NCBI GenBank assembly: GCA_016179105.1 | Contig: JACOSB010000114.1 | Span: forward strand, 1-64,000 | Source: Candidatus Acetothermia bacterium | GTDB taxonomy: Bacteria; Bipolaricaulota; Bipolaricaulia; RBG-16-55-9; DRXL01 | Direction of reading: 5' to 3' | Length of the DNA stretch: 64,000 nucleotides | Shown: piece after piece, positions 20,151-28,614 of the stretch | How the letters are laid out: each line of letters begins with the position of its first letter | Position numbering within the stretch: the first letter of the stretch is position 1 | Notes under the pieces: generated by a model | Databases searched by the model: none | Told to the model about the DNA's origin: nothing | The model's input: only the letters and a program-made list of their open reading frames with translations | Program-made: the position numbers and the translations under genes

Positions 20151-22784
20151 CTACGGCACACAGACCTGCCCGTCGGGCAGATTCTTGAATGGGTGATTTC
20201 CCGGGTTGCCCATGCCGTTCCGATGGCCCAATTTGTTATTGCTCTCAATCAAGTTACCGTCTTGGAAAACCACTCGACCCTCGAACTTATCTTCATCGTA
20301 GCCGCATCGCTTCAGCATAGCCGCCACACCCCAGTCGGCGTTGTTCTTAATCATCGTGTTGCTTATCGTCATCTGCGATTTTTTGCTTAGCTCGATCCCA
20401 TCACAGAACGAACCCGCTCTTGCACACAAGGAGGCTTTTCCGTTATCCTCGACAGTGCTGCCTTCTACTCTCACGGATGCCGAATCCCCCGCCATGAGGC
20501 CACGAAACCCGTTGCCGATGACCTGCGTATGAGTGAGGGTCGCCGCAGCCGAATCCCTCACGAAGAAGCCATCGACTCCATTGTTCGAGACTTGCGAGTT
20601 CTGGATTTCGATCATACCTGCGTCTCTCACGAAAATACCTTGGCCTTTGCTGTCAGTAACGCGAGAGTTATTGAGGCTTGCTTTGGCTGTCCCCCCGACG
20701 AAGAGGCCGAGTATGTTGCCCGAGAGGGTGGAGTCCGTAAGACTCGCCTGAGCGGAGCCGCCCACTGAGAGACCAAAAGAATTCTCGGAGATAACCGTCC
20801 TCTCTTTGATTTCTACTAGCGTGGTCTGCCCTGTAGCCTCGGTGACGAAGATACCGGCCCCGGCATTCCCCGAAATCCTTCCGCTGGCGATCGTAGCTTT
20901 ACTACCGTCCTCCACGACGATACCATGCCCGAAATCACCGTTAGGATCGCGTTTTGTGCCCTTGGCCTGCGTCCCTTCTTTGAGCGCGCCAAGCTTGCTC
21001 AGCATCGAGCCCCCCGTCACAAAGACTCCGGCGCCGATGTTGCTCTCAAATCCATCATCAGTCAAAGTGGCTTTCGACTTGCTCCGTAGCACGAGTCCCT
21101 TATCTTTGTTGCCCACAAACGTGTTGAACTTAAAGCTGGCAGAAGCATCCGTCAGGCTGGCCCCTGCGCCTTCGTTCTCGACGATGCGATTATTCTGTAC
21201 CGCCAACTCCGAAGACCTAACGTCCAATCCTTCCCGCTGGTTGCGCTCTAAGACGTTATCTTCCAGGATTACCCCCGTACTATCCAAGACACGAATTCCT
21301 TTACGCCCGCCGCGAATCGTGAGCGCTTGCACGGTGACCTGTTTCGTCCCGTCGATGGTGATCACATCGTTGCTCCCGTCTCCCAACAGAGTCGTGCGTG
21401 CAGCTCCGACGCCGAGCAGCGTGAGTGATTTGGTAATTCGGACGTTTTCCTGGCAAATCCCTTCGTCCACTAGGATTATTTCTCCCTCACGCACATTGCT
21501 GATCGCACTTTGCAAAGACGTAAACTCCCCCGCTTCGGGGCGTCCTTGAATCCGCACCTTACAGAGTGCTGCTCGCGCTAGGCTGACAGGTTTTGTCGAA
21601 GAAACAGTGAAGCCTCCCTCATCGGTGACAGTGAGAGTCACGAGGGGATCACGATCGCGAGCAATTTGCTGATCGCTAAAAGTAAAGGTCACTTTTTGTC
21701 CGGAGAGAGTCGCTTCGTTGTTGCCATCGCCGTTGACGTCAAAAGCCCACTCAAATTTGATAATCTGGCCATCGGGATCAAAAGACCCCTGGTCGGCGCA
21801 TTGAGATAAGAAAGCACAGGCATCGAACGTGATAACCTCTCCGGGTTTGGGTTTCATCGGCTGCCAACTAAATCGGGCCACCGGGGCTCGATTGATCTGG
21901 GCTTCCCGCAGCAGGGCAGAGGCGGAGTTGATGGACCGTGCCACGGTCTGCCCCCCTTGAATCCCACATAGGATGCCGACGACCAAACCAGTCTTGCGGT
22001 CGATCACCGGCCCACCGCTCATGCCCACCTCTGAAGAGGGGTCAGCAAAGAGAAGTCCTGTCAGCTCGTTGATATTGGAGAGGGTCGCGGGGCGGACATC
22101 CAGAGTTGGACTCAACCGCGATCGCAGTGCTGGGAAGCCGCGCAGCGTGATCGACTGGTCTCTTTGCAAGGTGCGCGCATCCCAGGGCACCAAGAGTCGC
22201 CTCGAAGTGAGTTTCCGTTCGAGTTCTGCAGCGACTTCCTCGGGTTTTAGGGGAGTAACCTTCAGCTCGTCGATCTTGTTCGTCAAGTCATCGAGATCAT
22301 TGAAGTCGTTCTCGATTCGGGCGCTGATCTGCAAGAGCGCCAAATCGAGTTTGGGGAGGTCTCTTACGATGTTTGCGAGATAACGGGGCACAGCGGGGTT
22401 ATTCTCCCCATTCTCGGTGACGAGAAGAATGACGCGGTCGGCTGAGCTGCTGGTGGGGATGTCTTGACAAGCCTCTGCTGCCGAGGCATTGTGAATGAGA
22501 TGAGAATTAGTCAAGGCTCGGCCATCGAGGTGCAGGATGAAGCCGGAGCCGGTTCGTTGGAGCTGGTTTCCCTGAAAAGCTGCAACCTGGACGACGGGCG
22601 AGATGGACTTTGTTGGCTGTTCATGCACGGGTAAACCAATAGCCCCATTAAAAAATTCTAGTGCTGAGACTGAGGAGTGCTCAGTGATGAACCAGGGAAT
22701 CACCATTGCGTGAGGGGTAGCTCGAGCCACTTGCAGGAAGAAGAGCATCACGATCGCCAGCAGCCACATTAGCGTTGCGCGCAT
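20151..22784 (-). CDS. Secreted trypsin-like protease with PKD-type and right-handed beta-helix domains
   Basis: 877 residues. Signal peptide 1-22. Residues about 65-270 form a trypsin/HtrA-like protease with intact triad: His95 in ALTNSHLIHN, Asp147 in KLDLALLQIS, Ser256 in VGMSGGPVIDRKTGLVVGIL. Residues about 300-400 are PKD-like (PVARFSW, FDPDGQIIKFEWAFDVNGDG, VTLTVTDEGG). Residues about 410-860 are a right-handed beta-helix of NosD/pectate-lyase type, starting with FTSLQSAISNVREGEIILVD and ILLGD-like turns, with repeats of N.I..N...G. Such helices often bind or cut polysaccharide. A longer paralogue is encoded at 25495-28614. Substrate unknown. Confidence 0.82.
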   Translation of the reverse strand: MRATLMWLLAIVMLFFLQVARATPHAMVIPWFITEHSSVSALEFFNGAIGLPVHEQPTKSISPVVQVAAFQGNQLQRTGSGFILHLDGRALTNSHLIHNASAAEACQDIPTSSSADRVILLVTENGENNPAVPRYLANIVRDLPKLDLALLQISARIENDFNDLDDLTNKIDELKVTPLKPEEVAAELERKLTSRRLLVPWDARTLQRDQSITLRGFPALRSRLSPTLDVRPATLSNINELTGLLFADPSSEVGMSGGPVIDRKTGLVVGILCGIQGGQTVARSINSASALLREAQINRAPVARFSWQPMKPKPGEVITFDACAFLSQCADQGSFDPDGQIIKFEWAFDVNGDGNNEATLSGQKVTFTFSDQQIARDRDPLVTLTVTDEGGFTVSSTKPVSLARAALCKVRIQGRPEAGEFTSLQSAISNVREGEIILVDEGICQENVRITKSLTLLGVGAARTTLLGDGSNDVITIDGTKQVTVQALTIRGGRKGIRVLDSTGVILEDNVLERNQREGLDVRSSELAVQNNRIVENEGAGASLTDASASFKFNTFVGNKDKGLVLRSKSKATLTDDGFESNIGAGVFVTGGSMLSKLGALKEGTQAKGTKRDPNGDFGHGIVVEDGSKATIASGRISGNAGAGIFVTEATGQTTLVEIKERTVISENSFGLSVGGSAQASLTDSTLSGNILGLFVGGTAKASLNNSRVTDSKGQGIFVRDAGMIEIQNSQVSNNGVDGFFVRDSAAATLTHTQVIGNGFRGLMAGDSASVRVEGSTVEDNGKASLCARAGSFCDGIELSKKSQMTISNTMIKNNADWGVAAMLKRCGYDEDKFEGRVVFQDGNLIESNNKLGHRNGMGNPGNHPFKNLPDGQVCVP

Positions 22785-22864: not shown

Positions 22865-25192
22865 TTACCCTCCGCGACACTTGCCGTTGAGACAGTAGAC
22901 GACATCTAGGTTGTCTAAAGGGTGAGACCCATGATTCTTGATGGTATCAGTACGATAGGCAAAGAGGCTGTTTCCCTCCACGATGTGGATCAATGGCTGA
23001 TCCGCACCGAACATGATCTGAGCATCATCAAAGAGTTTTCTCTGTTCTTCTACATCCAGCGTCGCTGACGCCTGGCGATACAGCGCGTCGATCTGCTTCT
23101 CAGATTCTGTCGCGTTCTTGGGACAGTCGACGTTCCAGAAGTGTAAGTTGCCATCACACAGGTAGACATTTACGCCTACTTCCGGAGCGCTCGACGATGT
23201 CAACCCTATTAAGATCGCCTCATAATCGCCGGCATTCAGCTTATCGACCTCCGCTTGGAAGTCCATAGGCTCGGGCTTGATTTTCACGCCAATCTTCCTG
23301 GCATCACCAGCAATTTGCTTAATCATTTCCTCACGGATCGTGTTGCCGACGTTGGTATTGAGAGTGAACTCAAGTTTTCCGGCCGGGTTGCCACGTCCCT
23401 GGAAGTTCGCCGGGACGATACGAATCCCGTCTGGCCCTTTCACTAGACCGACTTTGTCCAAAAGCTCGTCAGCTTTCCTAGGGGCAAACGGAAATTTTGC
23501 CGTCTGTTCCCATCTGTTGAGCACGTTCAGGTCTTGCCCAAGGCGCTCGATGAAGAACTGAGAGTTGACTGGGATGTGGCTGTACTGCTCGACGCCTAAG
23601 CCCAAGAGAATGTTCTTCTTAATCGTGGCGCGGTCCGTGATCATGCTCATCGCTTGGCGGAATTCTCTGGAGTTGAAAAGGGCGCGCAGCGTCGGGTTCT
23701 TCGTCGTCCAGCTGACGACCCAAAACGTCGTACCGAAGACAGCCATACCTGAGTCAATATCATCATTGACCGGGAAGTTCTTAGAGGCTTTATCCGATTG
23801 TAAAACCGCGATGTCTTCGGAACGTGGTCTGACGAAGTCTGTCTGTCCATTGCGGAACTGCGCGAGCGCTATCTCTTGGCCCTGAGTTGGAGCGAACAGA
23901 ATGCGTATGCCGTCGAGATATGGCAATTGATTACCCTTCTCGTCGGTCTCCCAGAAGAAGGGGTTGCGCTTGTATTCAGCCACCGCGTTCGGGTCCAGCT
24001 TGGTCAAGATATAGTTGCTCGTTCCGATGCCGACCAGCTTATCGAGAGGTGTCGTCAAGCCCAACGCGGTGTTAAAGTCCTTGGGAGATCTCTCCACATT
24101 GGGAACTAGTTCCAGAACTTTCTTCTTGTTGAAGATGACAATACTGCCCATGATACCTACAAAGTGGCTGCGTGCCCTGGCACAGGTGAAAGTGATCTTG
24201 TTCGATGCCTCGACCCTGATCGTCGGGAGCTTGCTGTCGCCGCAGGCGATGACGTCCCGCGTCGAAGTGGCAATATCCTTGGGGAAAATCAAATTTTCAT
24301 AGGTGAAGCGAACGTCTTCCGCCGTGACGGGATCGCCGTTGGAGAATTTGACCCCCTTGCGGATCGTGAATGTAACGGCCTGACCGCCGCTCGGGATGGG
24401 GTTGGCTTGAGCACGCACTTCCCCGGCGGGGTTCTGCTCCGTGTGAATGTTGACGTACAGATCTCCGTTCAAGAGCGCATCGAAGAAGTCTTTGGTCAGT
24501 GGCTCTTTGTCGCTACCTTTCCAGACGCCCTCGACCGTGACGGACGGGACGCTCACGTTGGGCTGCTGGGGGTTGAGAGCGCCACCCGTCGGGCAGTCGC
24601 CGGCACAGATCGTGCGGATGACGGGGCCGGCCTCGCCTGTCTTCGCTCGATGGAAATGGATAGCGCGGGCTGGTCCGGTGAGGTTTGAGTAACTGATTCT
24701 GTAGGCCACTTCAAGCCTGGCTTGGTCGAGCCTGAGTGAAGCAATGCCCACACCTCCACGGTAGTTGACTGGAAGCGGCCTTGGTGAAGGAACTTCTTGA
24801 CCGCGGGTGATTGTACCACTTGCGGAGGCACACGGACAAGTATTCTTAACTTCAAAGGCCTCTGCCAGTGCTGGAATTGTTCCAGTGGTTAGAGAGTCAA
24901 ATAACACACCCGTGGTCTGAACCGAAGTATTGTCCGTGCTAGTGATCACATTGAGAGTTCGGACGCGAGAGATGAACGTAAACGTCATGACGCCGCCGCA
25001 GGTAGCGTTTTTTGCCTCGTCCGGGTTTGGCATATCCTCGTTCTTAAAGATGTACGGGTTTAGGCCGCCCTGGGCACCAATCTTGAGGCAGTCTCCTGCG
25101 AGCGCGTTTACAGCCCCAAGATTGCCGAAGATCCCTGCAACAACGATCAATGTGAGAATCCACACTTGGCGAAGAAAGATTGGGTTCTGCAT
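22865..25192 (-). CDS. Solute-binding protein family 5 (peptide-type) with an inserted CHRD domain
   Basis: 775 residues. Signal peptide about 1-31. The SBP_bac_5 fold begins near residue 36 and reaches PALAEAFEVKN (107-117). It then breaks at a CHRD-type domain (about 123-265: GVGIASLRLD, YRISYSNLTGPARAIHFHRA, DLYVNIHTEQNPAGEVRAQ), and resumes at VTFTIRKGVKFSNGDPVTAE (273 on), the strand that normally follows directly. The rest is standard for the family (YLDGIRILFA, FREAMSM-like FRQAMSMITDRATIKK). Family members bind oligopeptides, nickel or opines for ABC import. No permease or ATPase is adjacent, so it may serve as a surface or sensing receptor. Confidence 0.82.
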   Translation of the reverse strand: MQNPIFLRQVWILTLIVVAGIFGNLGAVNALAGDCLKIGAQGGLNPYIFKNEDMPNPDEAKNATCGGVMTFTFISRVRTLNVITSTDNTSVQTTGVLFDSLTTGTIPALAEAFEVKNTCPCASASGTITRGQEVPSPRPLPVNYRGGVGIASLRLDQARLEVAYRISYSNLTGPARAIHFHRAKTGEAGPVIRTICAGDCPTGGALNPQQPNVSVPSVTVEGVWKGSDKEPLTKDFFDALLNGDLYVNIHTEQNPAGEVRAQANPIPSGGQAVTFTIRKGVKFSNGDPVTAEDVRFTYENLIFPKDIATSTRDVIACGDSKLPTIRVEASNKITFTCARARSHFVGIMGSIVIFNKKKVLELVPNVERSPKDFNTALGLTTPLDKLVGIGTSNYILTKLDPNAVAEYKRNPFFWETDEKGNQLPYLDGIRILFAPTQGQEIALAQFRNGQTDFVRPRSEDIAVLQSDKASKNFPVNDDIDSGMAVFGTTFWVVSWTTKNPTLRALFNSREFRQAMSMITDRATIKKNILLGLGVEQYSHIPVNSQFFIERLGQDLNVLNRWEQTAKFPFAPRKADELLDKVGLVKGPDGIRIVPANFQGRGNPAGKLEFTLNTNVGNTIREEMIKQIAGDARKIGVKIKPEPMDFQAEVDKLNAGDYEAILIGLTSSSAPEVGVNVYLCDGNLHFWNVDCPKNATESEKQIDALYRQASATLDVEEQRKLFDDAQIMFGADQPLIHIVEGNSLFAYRTDTIKNHGSHPLDNLDVVYCLNGKCRGG

Positions 25193-25494: not shown

Positions 25495-28400
25495 TTACTT
25501 ACATTTCCCTTGAAGGTTAGGAGACACTCCTGTTTTTAGATCGGCGCCGTTGTTGCTAAGAGTATTGCCTTCGCACTTTAACACCTCCGAAAAATCGTCG
25601 GCATAGATACCGTAACCTTGGTTGCCTGTGATCGTATTATTTGTAATGGCTTCCGCTATCCCTCCTCTAGATGTAGTTGTTACTCCCTTATAGAGATAAA
25701 TCCCGTGCTGGCCGTTCTCACGAATGGTATTATTGTCTACGGCCTTTACTTTTGAGTCATCGCGAATGATCAACCCGTGTTGACCGTTTTTCTCCAATGT
25801 ATTGCCTTTGATGGTTCCAACTAAAAGGGTTCGGAAGATCGTAATGCCCGCACGAGGATTTTGGGAAGCGGTATTTCCTTCCAGATCCACTGCCGAATCA
25901 TTCGAGACCTCAATTCCAGTTCCCGGAGGTGGATCTGCCTTTGTTCTAAGCACCTCATTCCCTTTGAGAATTGCGCTTGATTTCTCGTGAATATCTATCC
26001 CAACGATACGGTTGTCCCATATAGTGTTCTTTTCGACCTTCAGAACTTTAGAACCAAAAGCAATAATCCCTGTACCTTCATTCTCAAGAATTCTATTCTT
26101 CTCTAGGGTAATGTCATTGGAATCTTCAACGGAGATGCCACGCCCTTCTTTCCCTTGAGCCCGGGTGTTTTGAATGGTGTTACTCGATATCAACAGCTCG
26201 GACGATTTAAGCACAAAAATTCCTTCAAAGGCGTTCGAGTTAACGGTGTTGTCCTTGATTTGTGAAGCTCTAGTGTTAAAGATCAGAAGCCCGTCTTCCG
26301 CGTTCTCTGCAATAGTGTTGCTCTGGATGATATTTCCGTCTCCCGCGCGTTCGATGTCGATGCCACGCCCGAACGCACCCGCTTTGTCTGTACTCGTTTT
26401 TTGAATCTGATTGCCCTGAATTGTGGCTCGTGCTTCATTCATAACCAGTATCCCCGACAATGAATTTTCGGAGATGAGATTGTTGACGACAATCGCGTCA
26501 GCTTGCTGCTGAACGCGAATGCCGTCGCTGCCGTTCTTAAGGATCTGGTTTCTCTCGCTCGCTTTATCCCCTCCGATCTGGGCTGCCGCGTTCGTGACTA
26601 TAAGTCCGACTCCCGCATTTCCCTCCACCCGGCCACCGATGATCGTCGCCGCTGCTTTACCCCTGGGACCGTCTTCAATGTCAATAGCGTGCCCGAAATC
26701 GCCACTGGGATCGAGTTTAGTCCCTGTGACCGTCAATCCGTTTTCGAGTGTTCTCAGCTCCGAGCCTCCTACAACTAGAATCCCGATTCCGCTGTTATCC
26801 CTAAGAATTTCACCCGATAGAGTTGCCTTGGATTGCTTCTCGATTATCAAGCCTTTATCTCCGTTACCGCTGACCGTGTTTCCCAAGAGCTCCACCGCCT
26901 CCGTGCCTACCAACGAGATTCCTTCTCTCCCATTGTTAGATATCTGATTATCGACGAGCTTGGCCGTGGATTGTGTGCTGATCTCGACTCCCTGCTGGAG
27001 ATTACCCTGAATCTTATTGCTATTGAGGTTCACCCCCGTGCTCTTGAAAATACGAATGCCCTGGGCGCCGTTTTTCACCGTGACTCCTGTAATCGTCACA
27101 TTCTTTGTATCGTGCACATAGATCGCTGGGTCTTCGCCGTTGCCCACCAGAATCGTTTGATCAGCTCCAACCCCACCAACCCCTTTGAGCGTGAGACTCT
27201 TCTTGATATCAAGACTTTCTTGTTCCTGACAAGTGCCGGCTGATACATTGACAGTAGTTCCGGCAAGAGCGTCCCGGATAGCTTGTTGAATTGAACCGTC
27301 GATTGTAGCTGTGCTGCCGTCTGATTTCGTGTATTTGACCTTCACCTGACATTCTCGCTTCATAACTATTTTTTGGCTAATGGAATTCGATAGCTCGTCA
27401 TCTTTTTTGACCGTTAGCGTTACCAAGGGATCAAACGACGAGGCAGGGAATGTGAACGTAACCTGCTTCAAGTTTGAACCTGATCGCTCTTCTTGCACAG
27501 GTTCATCCGGGTCTATCTGGTTGTTGCCGTTTTTATCGAACCTCCACTGCCAGCGGTACTCCTTGATCGGCTGCCCATCGGGATCCACCGAGGCTGTGCC
27601 ATTAAAGGATACTGCTTGCCCAAAACCGGGATTCGGATTCTTTGGGAACTCAAAGGTCGCTACGGGGGCACGATTAATCCCCTGGAGCAAGCCGACTGCG
27701 GCGGCCACGTTGATGGTCCGAGCTACCGTCTGGTTTCCTTGGATCGCACAAAGAATACCTACCACGAGGCCGTTGTCACGATCGATCACTGGCCCCCCAC
27801 TCATGCCCGGTGCAGAATCCAAGGTCGCATAGATAAGCCCTGTCGTCTCATTGATCGTTGTTACCTGGGCGTGTCTGCTATCGAGCAGGACGGAGTCGTC
27901 GAGTCTTGAAGGAAACCCTCGCAGGTTTAGCCATTGGTCACTGTGTAACACCCCTGCATCCCAAGGCACCAGCTGCTCTTCCTTGGAGAGTTTTTGACTC
28001 AGTTCTGCGGCGACTTGTGCAGGTGATCGTGCTACCCTCGTCAGCTCGCCAATCTTATTCTTCAAATCTGTAAGATCCTGGAGAGTGTTCTCAATACGTT
28101 CACTGATCTGCAGGAGCGCTAGATCCACGTCATTCCTATCGCTCACGACGGTAGCCACATAGCGCGGCACCGCGACGTTTTTTATGCCCTTCTCCGTCAC
28201 CAAGATAAATATGCGATCCGCTGTGTTGTCTTTAGAAATGTCCTTACAGGTGCCCCCAGCAGCAGAAACACGATGGAGTATGTGAGAGTTGGTCAGAATT
28301 AAGCCGTGCAGGTCCAAGATAAAGCCCGAACCCGCTTGCAAAAATTGGTTTCCTTGAAAGGCCGCGATCTGCACGACGGGAGAGATTTGTTGCGTCTGTT

Positions 28401-28614
28401 GGGCTTGTGCCAATGATTTGACCAATCTTTCTGAACCACGCGTGCGTGAAAATCCAAATGAACTCAAATCACTACCCAGCGGCAGCGAGCCCCCGCTCGT
28501 TCCCAATTCTTCTCCTGCAGCAAAATTATGTTCTGGCGTGCTACCCAGCGATGGCAGCGCGACCAATAGCAAAACTGAAAACAGAAACGTACTTTTGAAC
28601 CTTTTCACAAGCAT
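25495..28614 (-). CDS. Secreted trypsin-like protease with PKD-type and long right-handed beta-helix
   Basis: 1039 residues, SD AAAGGGAGG before ATG. Signal peptide 1-25. Protease domain about 75-290 with triad His111 (LTNSHILHRV), Asp164 (DVDLALLQI) and Ser272 (APGMSGGPVIDRDNG). PKD-like domain about 315-410 (SFNGTASVDPDGQPIKEYRW). Long beta-helix about 430-1030 with many N.I..N...GI turns (LISNNGREGISLVG-type), ending in a Cys-containing cap. Closely parallels the 877-residue protein at 20151-22784, domain by domain, but with a longer helix. First gene of a minus-strand unit with the small secreted protein and the CHRD-containing binding protein. Confidence 0.82.
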   Translation of the reverse strand: MLVKRFKSTFLFSVLLLVALPSLGSTPEHNFAAGEELGTSGGSLPLGSDLSSFGFSRTRGSERLVKSLAQAQQTQQISPVVQIAAFQGNQFLQAGSGFILDLHGLILTNSHILHRVSAAGGTCKDISKDNTADRIFILVTEKGIKNVAVPRYVATVVSDRNDVDLALLQISERIENTLQDLTDLKNKIGELTRVARSPAQVAAELSQKLSKEEQLVPWDAGVLHSDQWLNLRGFPSRLDDSVLLDSRHAQVTTINETTGLIYATLDSAPGMSGGPVIDRDNGLVVGILCAIQGNQTVARTINVAAAVGLLQGINRAPVATFEFPKNPNPGFGQAVSFNGTASVDPDGQPIKEYRWQWRFDKNGNNQIDPDEPVQEERSGSNLKQVTFTFPASSFDPLVTLTVKKDDELSNSISQKIVMKRECQVKVKYTKSDGSTATIDGSIQQAIRDALAGTTVNVSAGTCQEQESLDIKKSLTLKGVGGVGADQTILVGNGEDPAIYVHDTKNVTITGVTVKNGAQGIRIFKSTGVNLNSNKIQGNLQQGVEISTQSTAKLVDNQISNNGREGISLVGTEAVELLGNTVSGNGDKGLIIEKQSKATLSGEILRDNSGIGILVVGGSELRTLENGLTVTGTKLDPSGDFGHAIDIEDGPRGKAAATIIGGRVEGNAGVGLIVTNAAAQIGGDKASERNQILKNGSDGIRVQQQADAIVVNNLISENSLSGILVMNEARATIQGNQIQKTSTDKAGAFGRGIDIERAGDGNIIQSNTIAENAEDGLLIFNTRASQIKDNTVNSNAFEGIFVLKSSELLISSNTIQNTRAQGKEGRGISVEDSNDITLEKNRILENEGTGIIAFGSKVLKVEKNTIWDNRIVGIDIHEKSSAILKGNEVLRTKADPPPGTGIEVSNDSAVDLEGNTASQNPRAGITIFRTLLVGTIKGNTLEKNGQHGLIIRDDSKVKAVDNNTIRENGQHGIYLYKGVTTTSRGGIAEAITNNTITGNQGYGIYADDFSEVLKCEGNTLSNNGADLKTGVSPNLQGKCK

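Follow-up and report, generated by a model that had tools for sequence, protein, structure and literature searches.

A CHRD domain inserted within a family-5 solute-binding protein of a Bipolaricaulota genome

The chimeric gene and its neighbourhood

The whole stretch of DNA analysed here (64,000 nucleotides) is called the window. Its plus strand is full of stops between 22865 and 25192, and the single open frame runs on the minus strand from 25192 to 22865, as do all features of the gene given below. This frame encodes a protein of 775 aa in which a signal peptide is followed by an SBP_bac_5 (family-5 solute-binding protein, SBP) domain interrupted by a CHRD domain. The probable signal peptide (residues 1-32, 25097-25192) was identified by eye and has an SPase I-type site, NALA followed by GD, and no lipobox. 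Alignment with uninserted paralogs delimited the N-terminal part of the SBP (residues 33-117, 24842-25096), of which AEAFEV is the last strand, and the inserted segment (residues 118-268, about 151 residues, 24389-24841). The CHRD domain proper was located with Pfam PF07452 at residues 129-262 (24407-24808; E 1.2e-19, 71.8 bits, cut-off 24.1). The C-terminal part of the SBP (residues 269-775, 22868-24388) was assigned from Pfam and from a predicted model that matches family-5 SBP structures; SBP_bac_5 covers residues 269-670 (E 7.6e-51, 173.8 bits, cut-off 32.4). This match begins at profile position 15, and the earlier profile positions correspond to residues ~107-117, ahead of the CHRD domain. 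The insertion site is the beta-turn between strands AEAFEV and VTFTIRKGVKF, which are adjacent in normal family-5 SBPs. A sequence-only reading of the window had proposed a CHRD domain inside a family-5 SBP, with boundaries at 107-117, ~123-265 and 273; the layout was borne out, with both Pfam matches above cut-off, and the boundaries proved right within a few residues. GC content is 60% in the inserted segment vs 51-53% in the flanking SBP parts. The C-terminal YCLNGKCRGG (22868-22897) is kept across the SBP subfamily by alignment, as [YF]CxxG[KR]CRGG in every genome seen (the window gene and its homologs in L009, L010 and L031-L036), and none was seen in the more distant SBP relatives here; it may form a disulfide or act as a recognition signal.

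Both flanking genes are also on the minus strand. By Pfam, the downstream neighbour (20151-22784, gap of 80 bp) encodes Trypsin_2 and a NosD-type beta-helix behind a signal peptide, and the upstream neighbour (25495-28614, gap of 302 bp) Trypsin_2 and a beta-helix; the two are paralogous (41% identical over 810 aa). A PKD protein is also among the same-strand neighbours. The same-strand genes are separated by 302, 80 and 112 bp, distances that would permit their co-transcription, and promoter and terminator scans at the locus were not above chance. The secreted-protein block without an adjacent ABC permease that had been described from sequence is confirmed: the neighbours are of secreted type, and the nearest BPD_transp_1 gene on the contig, which adjoins an ABC_tran gene, lies ~17 kb off on the other strand.

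Structure prediction, suggested earlier as a check, agreed with the SBP half of the proposal. Residues ~270-750 of the whole protein were modelled well by AlphaFold, with a predicted two-lobed fold as in solved family-5 SBPs; residues 1-269 had pLDDT below 50, and the CHRD domain modelled alone, with no alignment, reached 39. Only C-part rows were used in the folding alignment, because MAFFT placed the hairpin wrongly without bridging paralogs. Foldseek on the SBP C-part returned SPH1118 first, then AppA, NikA and oligosaccharide (chitooligosaccharide) SBPs. Judging by OppA, the hairpin at the insertion site is presumably part of the lobe not lining the ligand cleft.

Copies, empty sites and history of the insertion

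Contig C50 of the source genome (3.7 Mb, 93% complete) encodes a second chimera in a single open frame; it is 80% identical to the first over its whole length, and its insert has the same boundaries. Two uninserted paralogs (632 and 629 aa) stand in tandem on contig C33, with C-part identities of 68% and 60%. At the empty site of the first, AEAFEV-AKVGNNGQ-KVTFTIRKGVKF, the halves are contiguous. The proposal hinged on the SBP halves joining once the segment is left out, and they join directly in both C33 paralogs and, through a short hairpin turn, in 20/20 other SBPs inspected from named contigs. An assembly or frameshift artefact was considered and rejected: another contig has an independent copy, which is open throughout and shares the boundaries of the insert, and uninserted paralogs are present. 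Contig C33 also encodes a 1064-aa SBP (L009:12793-15987) with an N-terminal BACON-type domain and an apparent helical insertion in the SBP region, and several long SBPs in the genome resemble it.

An alignment-based search of genome contigs yielded 29 loci. At the threshold used, a CHRD match was found in 16 of 100 genomes of the phylum; only the source genome has it inside an SBP, which answers, for these 100 genomes, the earlier suggestion to look for the same insertion elsewhere, and the CHRDs of the other genomes sit in short frames (177-416 aa). No chimeric layout was present among the matches listed for 386 genomes from the phylum of a cyanobacterial locus, or among those listed for 95 genomes from the phylum of a Rokuibacteriota locus. 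The plasmid search gave no record covering 80% of the query, and viral contigs gave no CHRD relatives; one viral match (L110) was rejected as a chance match. Same-family SBPs (L031-L036) have an N-terminal extension of ~190 residues, with no Pfam match and no CHRD insertion. The domain insertion is real and lineage-restricted, with a second inserted copy and empty-site paralogs in the same genome.

The tree unites the chimeric pair in a clade (support 100/99) and, separately, the same-family relatives (100/100), the branching among these two clades and the two uninserted paralogs not being firmly resolved. The gene itself is common to the two chimeric loci, and no flanking synteny was found between them. 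The C50 chimera has as its neighbour a gene for a BTAD/NB-ARC/TPR regulator (L010:11225-14617), with hrcA, dnaK and dnaJ nearby. The simplest account of the copies is a gene duplication and one domain insertion, followed by duplication of the chimeric gene. The two chimeras are 80% identical in the CHRD domain and 81% in the SBP C-part (amino acid), with dN/dS ~0.14 in both parts (NG86), a rough value with dS at ~0.9; as far as this value can be read, the two parts appear to be under similar purifying selection.

The inserted domain, its relatives and its histidines

The closest stand-alone CHRDs are 45-49% identical to the inserted one. Among the nearest relatives is a protein of the same genome on contig C3 (L013:2076-3248) in which Pfam finds a cupredoxin followed by two CHRDs. 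Others come from two same-family genomes, where a cupredoxin-like segment can be recognised from sequence ahead of one CHRD. Searched as a profile, the nearest CHRDs hit the solved structure of human chordin (E 3.8e-6); the CHRDs of human chordin adopt a SOD-like barrel and bind heparan sulfate (PMC13382577). Glycan binding of animal CHRDs need not carry over to a bacterial CHRD, for which no ligand is established in the literature searched; the search likewise gave no relevant paper that links CHRD to copper or treats Bipolaricaulota SBPs.

The HFH motif (His179 and His181, 24650-24658) aligned, at a weak score, with the copper-ligand H-x-H of Cu/Zn SOD, and the N-I-H motif (Asn248-His250, 24443-24451) with the third SOD copper-ligand region in a low-confidence part of the path. 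Across 22 Bipolaricaulota CHRDs the first histidine is present in 19, the second in all 22 and the third in 21 (HxH, NxH). An hhalign comparison with 20 bacterial Cu/Zn SODs placed HxH on the SOD HxH (E 0.026, probability 1.9%), and His250 met a SOD ligand only on a forced full-length path. The Greek-key barrel of Cu/Zn SOD (PF00080) is published for the CHRDs of chordin; the sequence score between SOD and CHRD is not significant. The SOD bridging histidine and zinc ligands were not found in the CHRD domain; only three candidate copper ligands align. The alignment points weakly to copper, as a lead and not a demonstration.

Transport partners and function

No permease adjoins the C50 chimera either. 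A look for one elsewhere, also suggested earlier, found two beside the uninserted paralogs on C33, in the order SBP-SBP-permease-permease, of BPD_transp_1_N and OppC_N types (DppB/DppC-type). The Dpp/Opp-type (OppD/OppF) ATPases of the source genome are on other contigs, and same-family relatives encode OppD/OppF-type ATPases ~3 kb from their SBP gene. It is therefore plausible, judging by gene positions, that the parts of one transporter are spread over the genome. Against a role with the C33 permease in particular, kinship is the sole tie between that permease and the orphan SBP.

Our preferred reading, to which we give about an even chance, is that a secreted Dpp/Opp-type SBP with an inserted CHRD domain, since duplicated, feeds a permease encoded in trans, the CHRD domain adding a module for binding or tethering. 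The SBP, a diverged paralog of those in the permease operon, took up an entire CHRD domain at the beta-turn, and duplication of the chimeric gene would have followed. The SBP would still fold round the CHRD domain and bind its solute, probably an oligopeptide or oligosaccharide, handing it to a DppBC-type permease such as that of C33. Less certainly, the CHRD barrel may be an added site that either binds copper or anchors the SBP close to a partner protein or surface glycan, and may raise local capture with no part in the solute cleft.

The histidines open a different role for the domain, that of a SOD-like mononuclear copper site (His179, His181, His250) serving copper capture or redox chemistry beside solute binding. 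Their retention in nearly all of the 22 Bipolaricaulota CHRDs, the HxH alignment, the cupredoxin fusions and the presence of NikA among family-5 SBPs all favour such a site, but the profile match is weak, its third histidine falls in the low-confidence path, the bridging and zinc ligands of SOD were not found, and human CHRDs lack these ligands and bind glycans; we consider it unlikely. Were the CHRD domain a second ligand module, for copper or acidic glycan, and were its state linked mechanically to the opening and closure of the SBP, one lineage would have a natural two-input binding protein, which is the most doubtful of the possibilities weighed here. That the domain is instead a neutral passenger, tolerated in a permissive turn with no function of its own, would fit its position at a beta-turn, its restriction to a single one of the 100 genomes of the phylum and the additions that other SBPs here tolerate (the BACON domain and helical insert on C33). 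The near-equal constraint on the CHRD domain (151 codons) and the SBP part, though a rough estimate, argues against a decaying passenger, as does the preservation of the CHRD core motifs in either chimera; this explanation is improbable.

The earlier reading had gone on to a surface receptor or sensor. In such a role the chimeric SBP would report its ligand to a membrane sensor, with the CHRD domain docking or reporting and no transporter being fed. The chimera, secreted block and missing adjacent permease behind that proposal stand; the step to a receptor is weak, paralogs and relatives being transport-linked. The nearest fold, SPH1118, binds pectin and acts in chemotaxis as well as in assimilation and uptake (PMC9314435), and the C50 chimera adjoins the BTAD/NB-ARC/TPR regulator. 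That regulator, however, looks cytoplasmic and has no counterpart beside the window copy, no chemoreceptor or extracytoplasmic sensor stands beside the chimeras among the genes checked, and the closest histidine kinase that was found lies ~21 kb off, on the opposite strand. Separately encoded transporter parts explain the orphan position equally well or better, and a receptor that feeds no transporter seems rather unlikely; sensing combined with uptake is conceivable by analogy with SPH1118.

Having two inserted and two uninserted paralogs in one genome makes the effect of the insertion on the binding protein directly testable. The chimeras are a clean example from nature of a domain inserted within another, with natural controls in the same genome. 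Because of the cupredoxin fusions and the retained histidines, it also gives a pointer to a possible ligand class of bacterial CHRD domains.

With the SBP_bac_5 family (AppA, OppA, DppA, NikA, SPH1118) the chimera has in common the sequence family, the predicted fold of residues ~270-750, conserved motifs and a secretion signal; it differs in having a 151-residue segment between AEAFEV and VTFTIRKG and no permease alongside. The C33 paralogs have the same C-terminus and a similar N-terminus, but lack the CHRD domain and share their operon with two permeases of Dpp/Opp type. The CHRDs of the C3 protein and of human chordin have the core motifs HFH, YVNIHT and N..GE[IV]R.Q in common with the window CHRD; those are separate or tandem, whereas the window CHRD is inserted within another fold, and the two inserted CHRDs are set apart by a CPC segment on the N-terminal side and an additional loop of ~12 residues.
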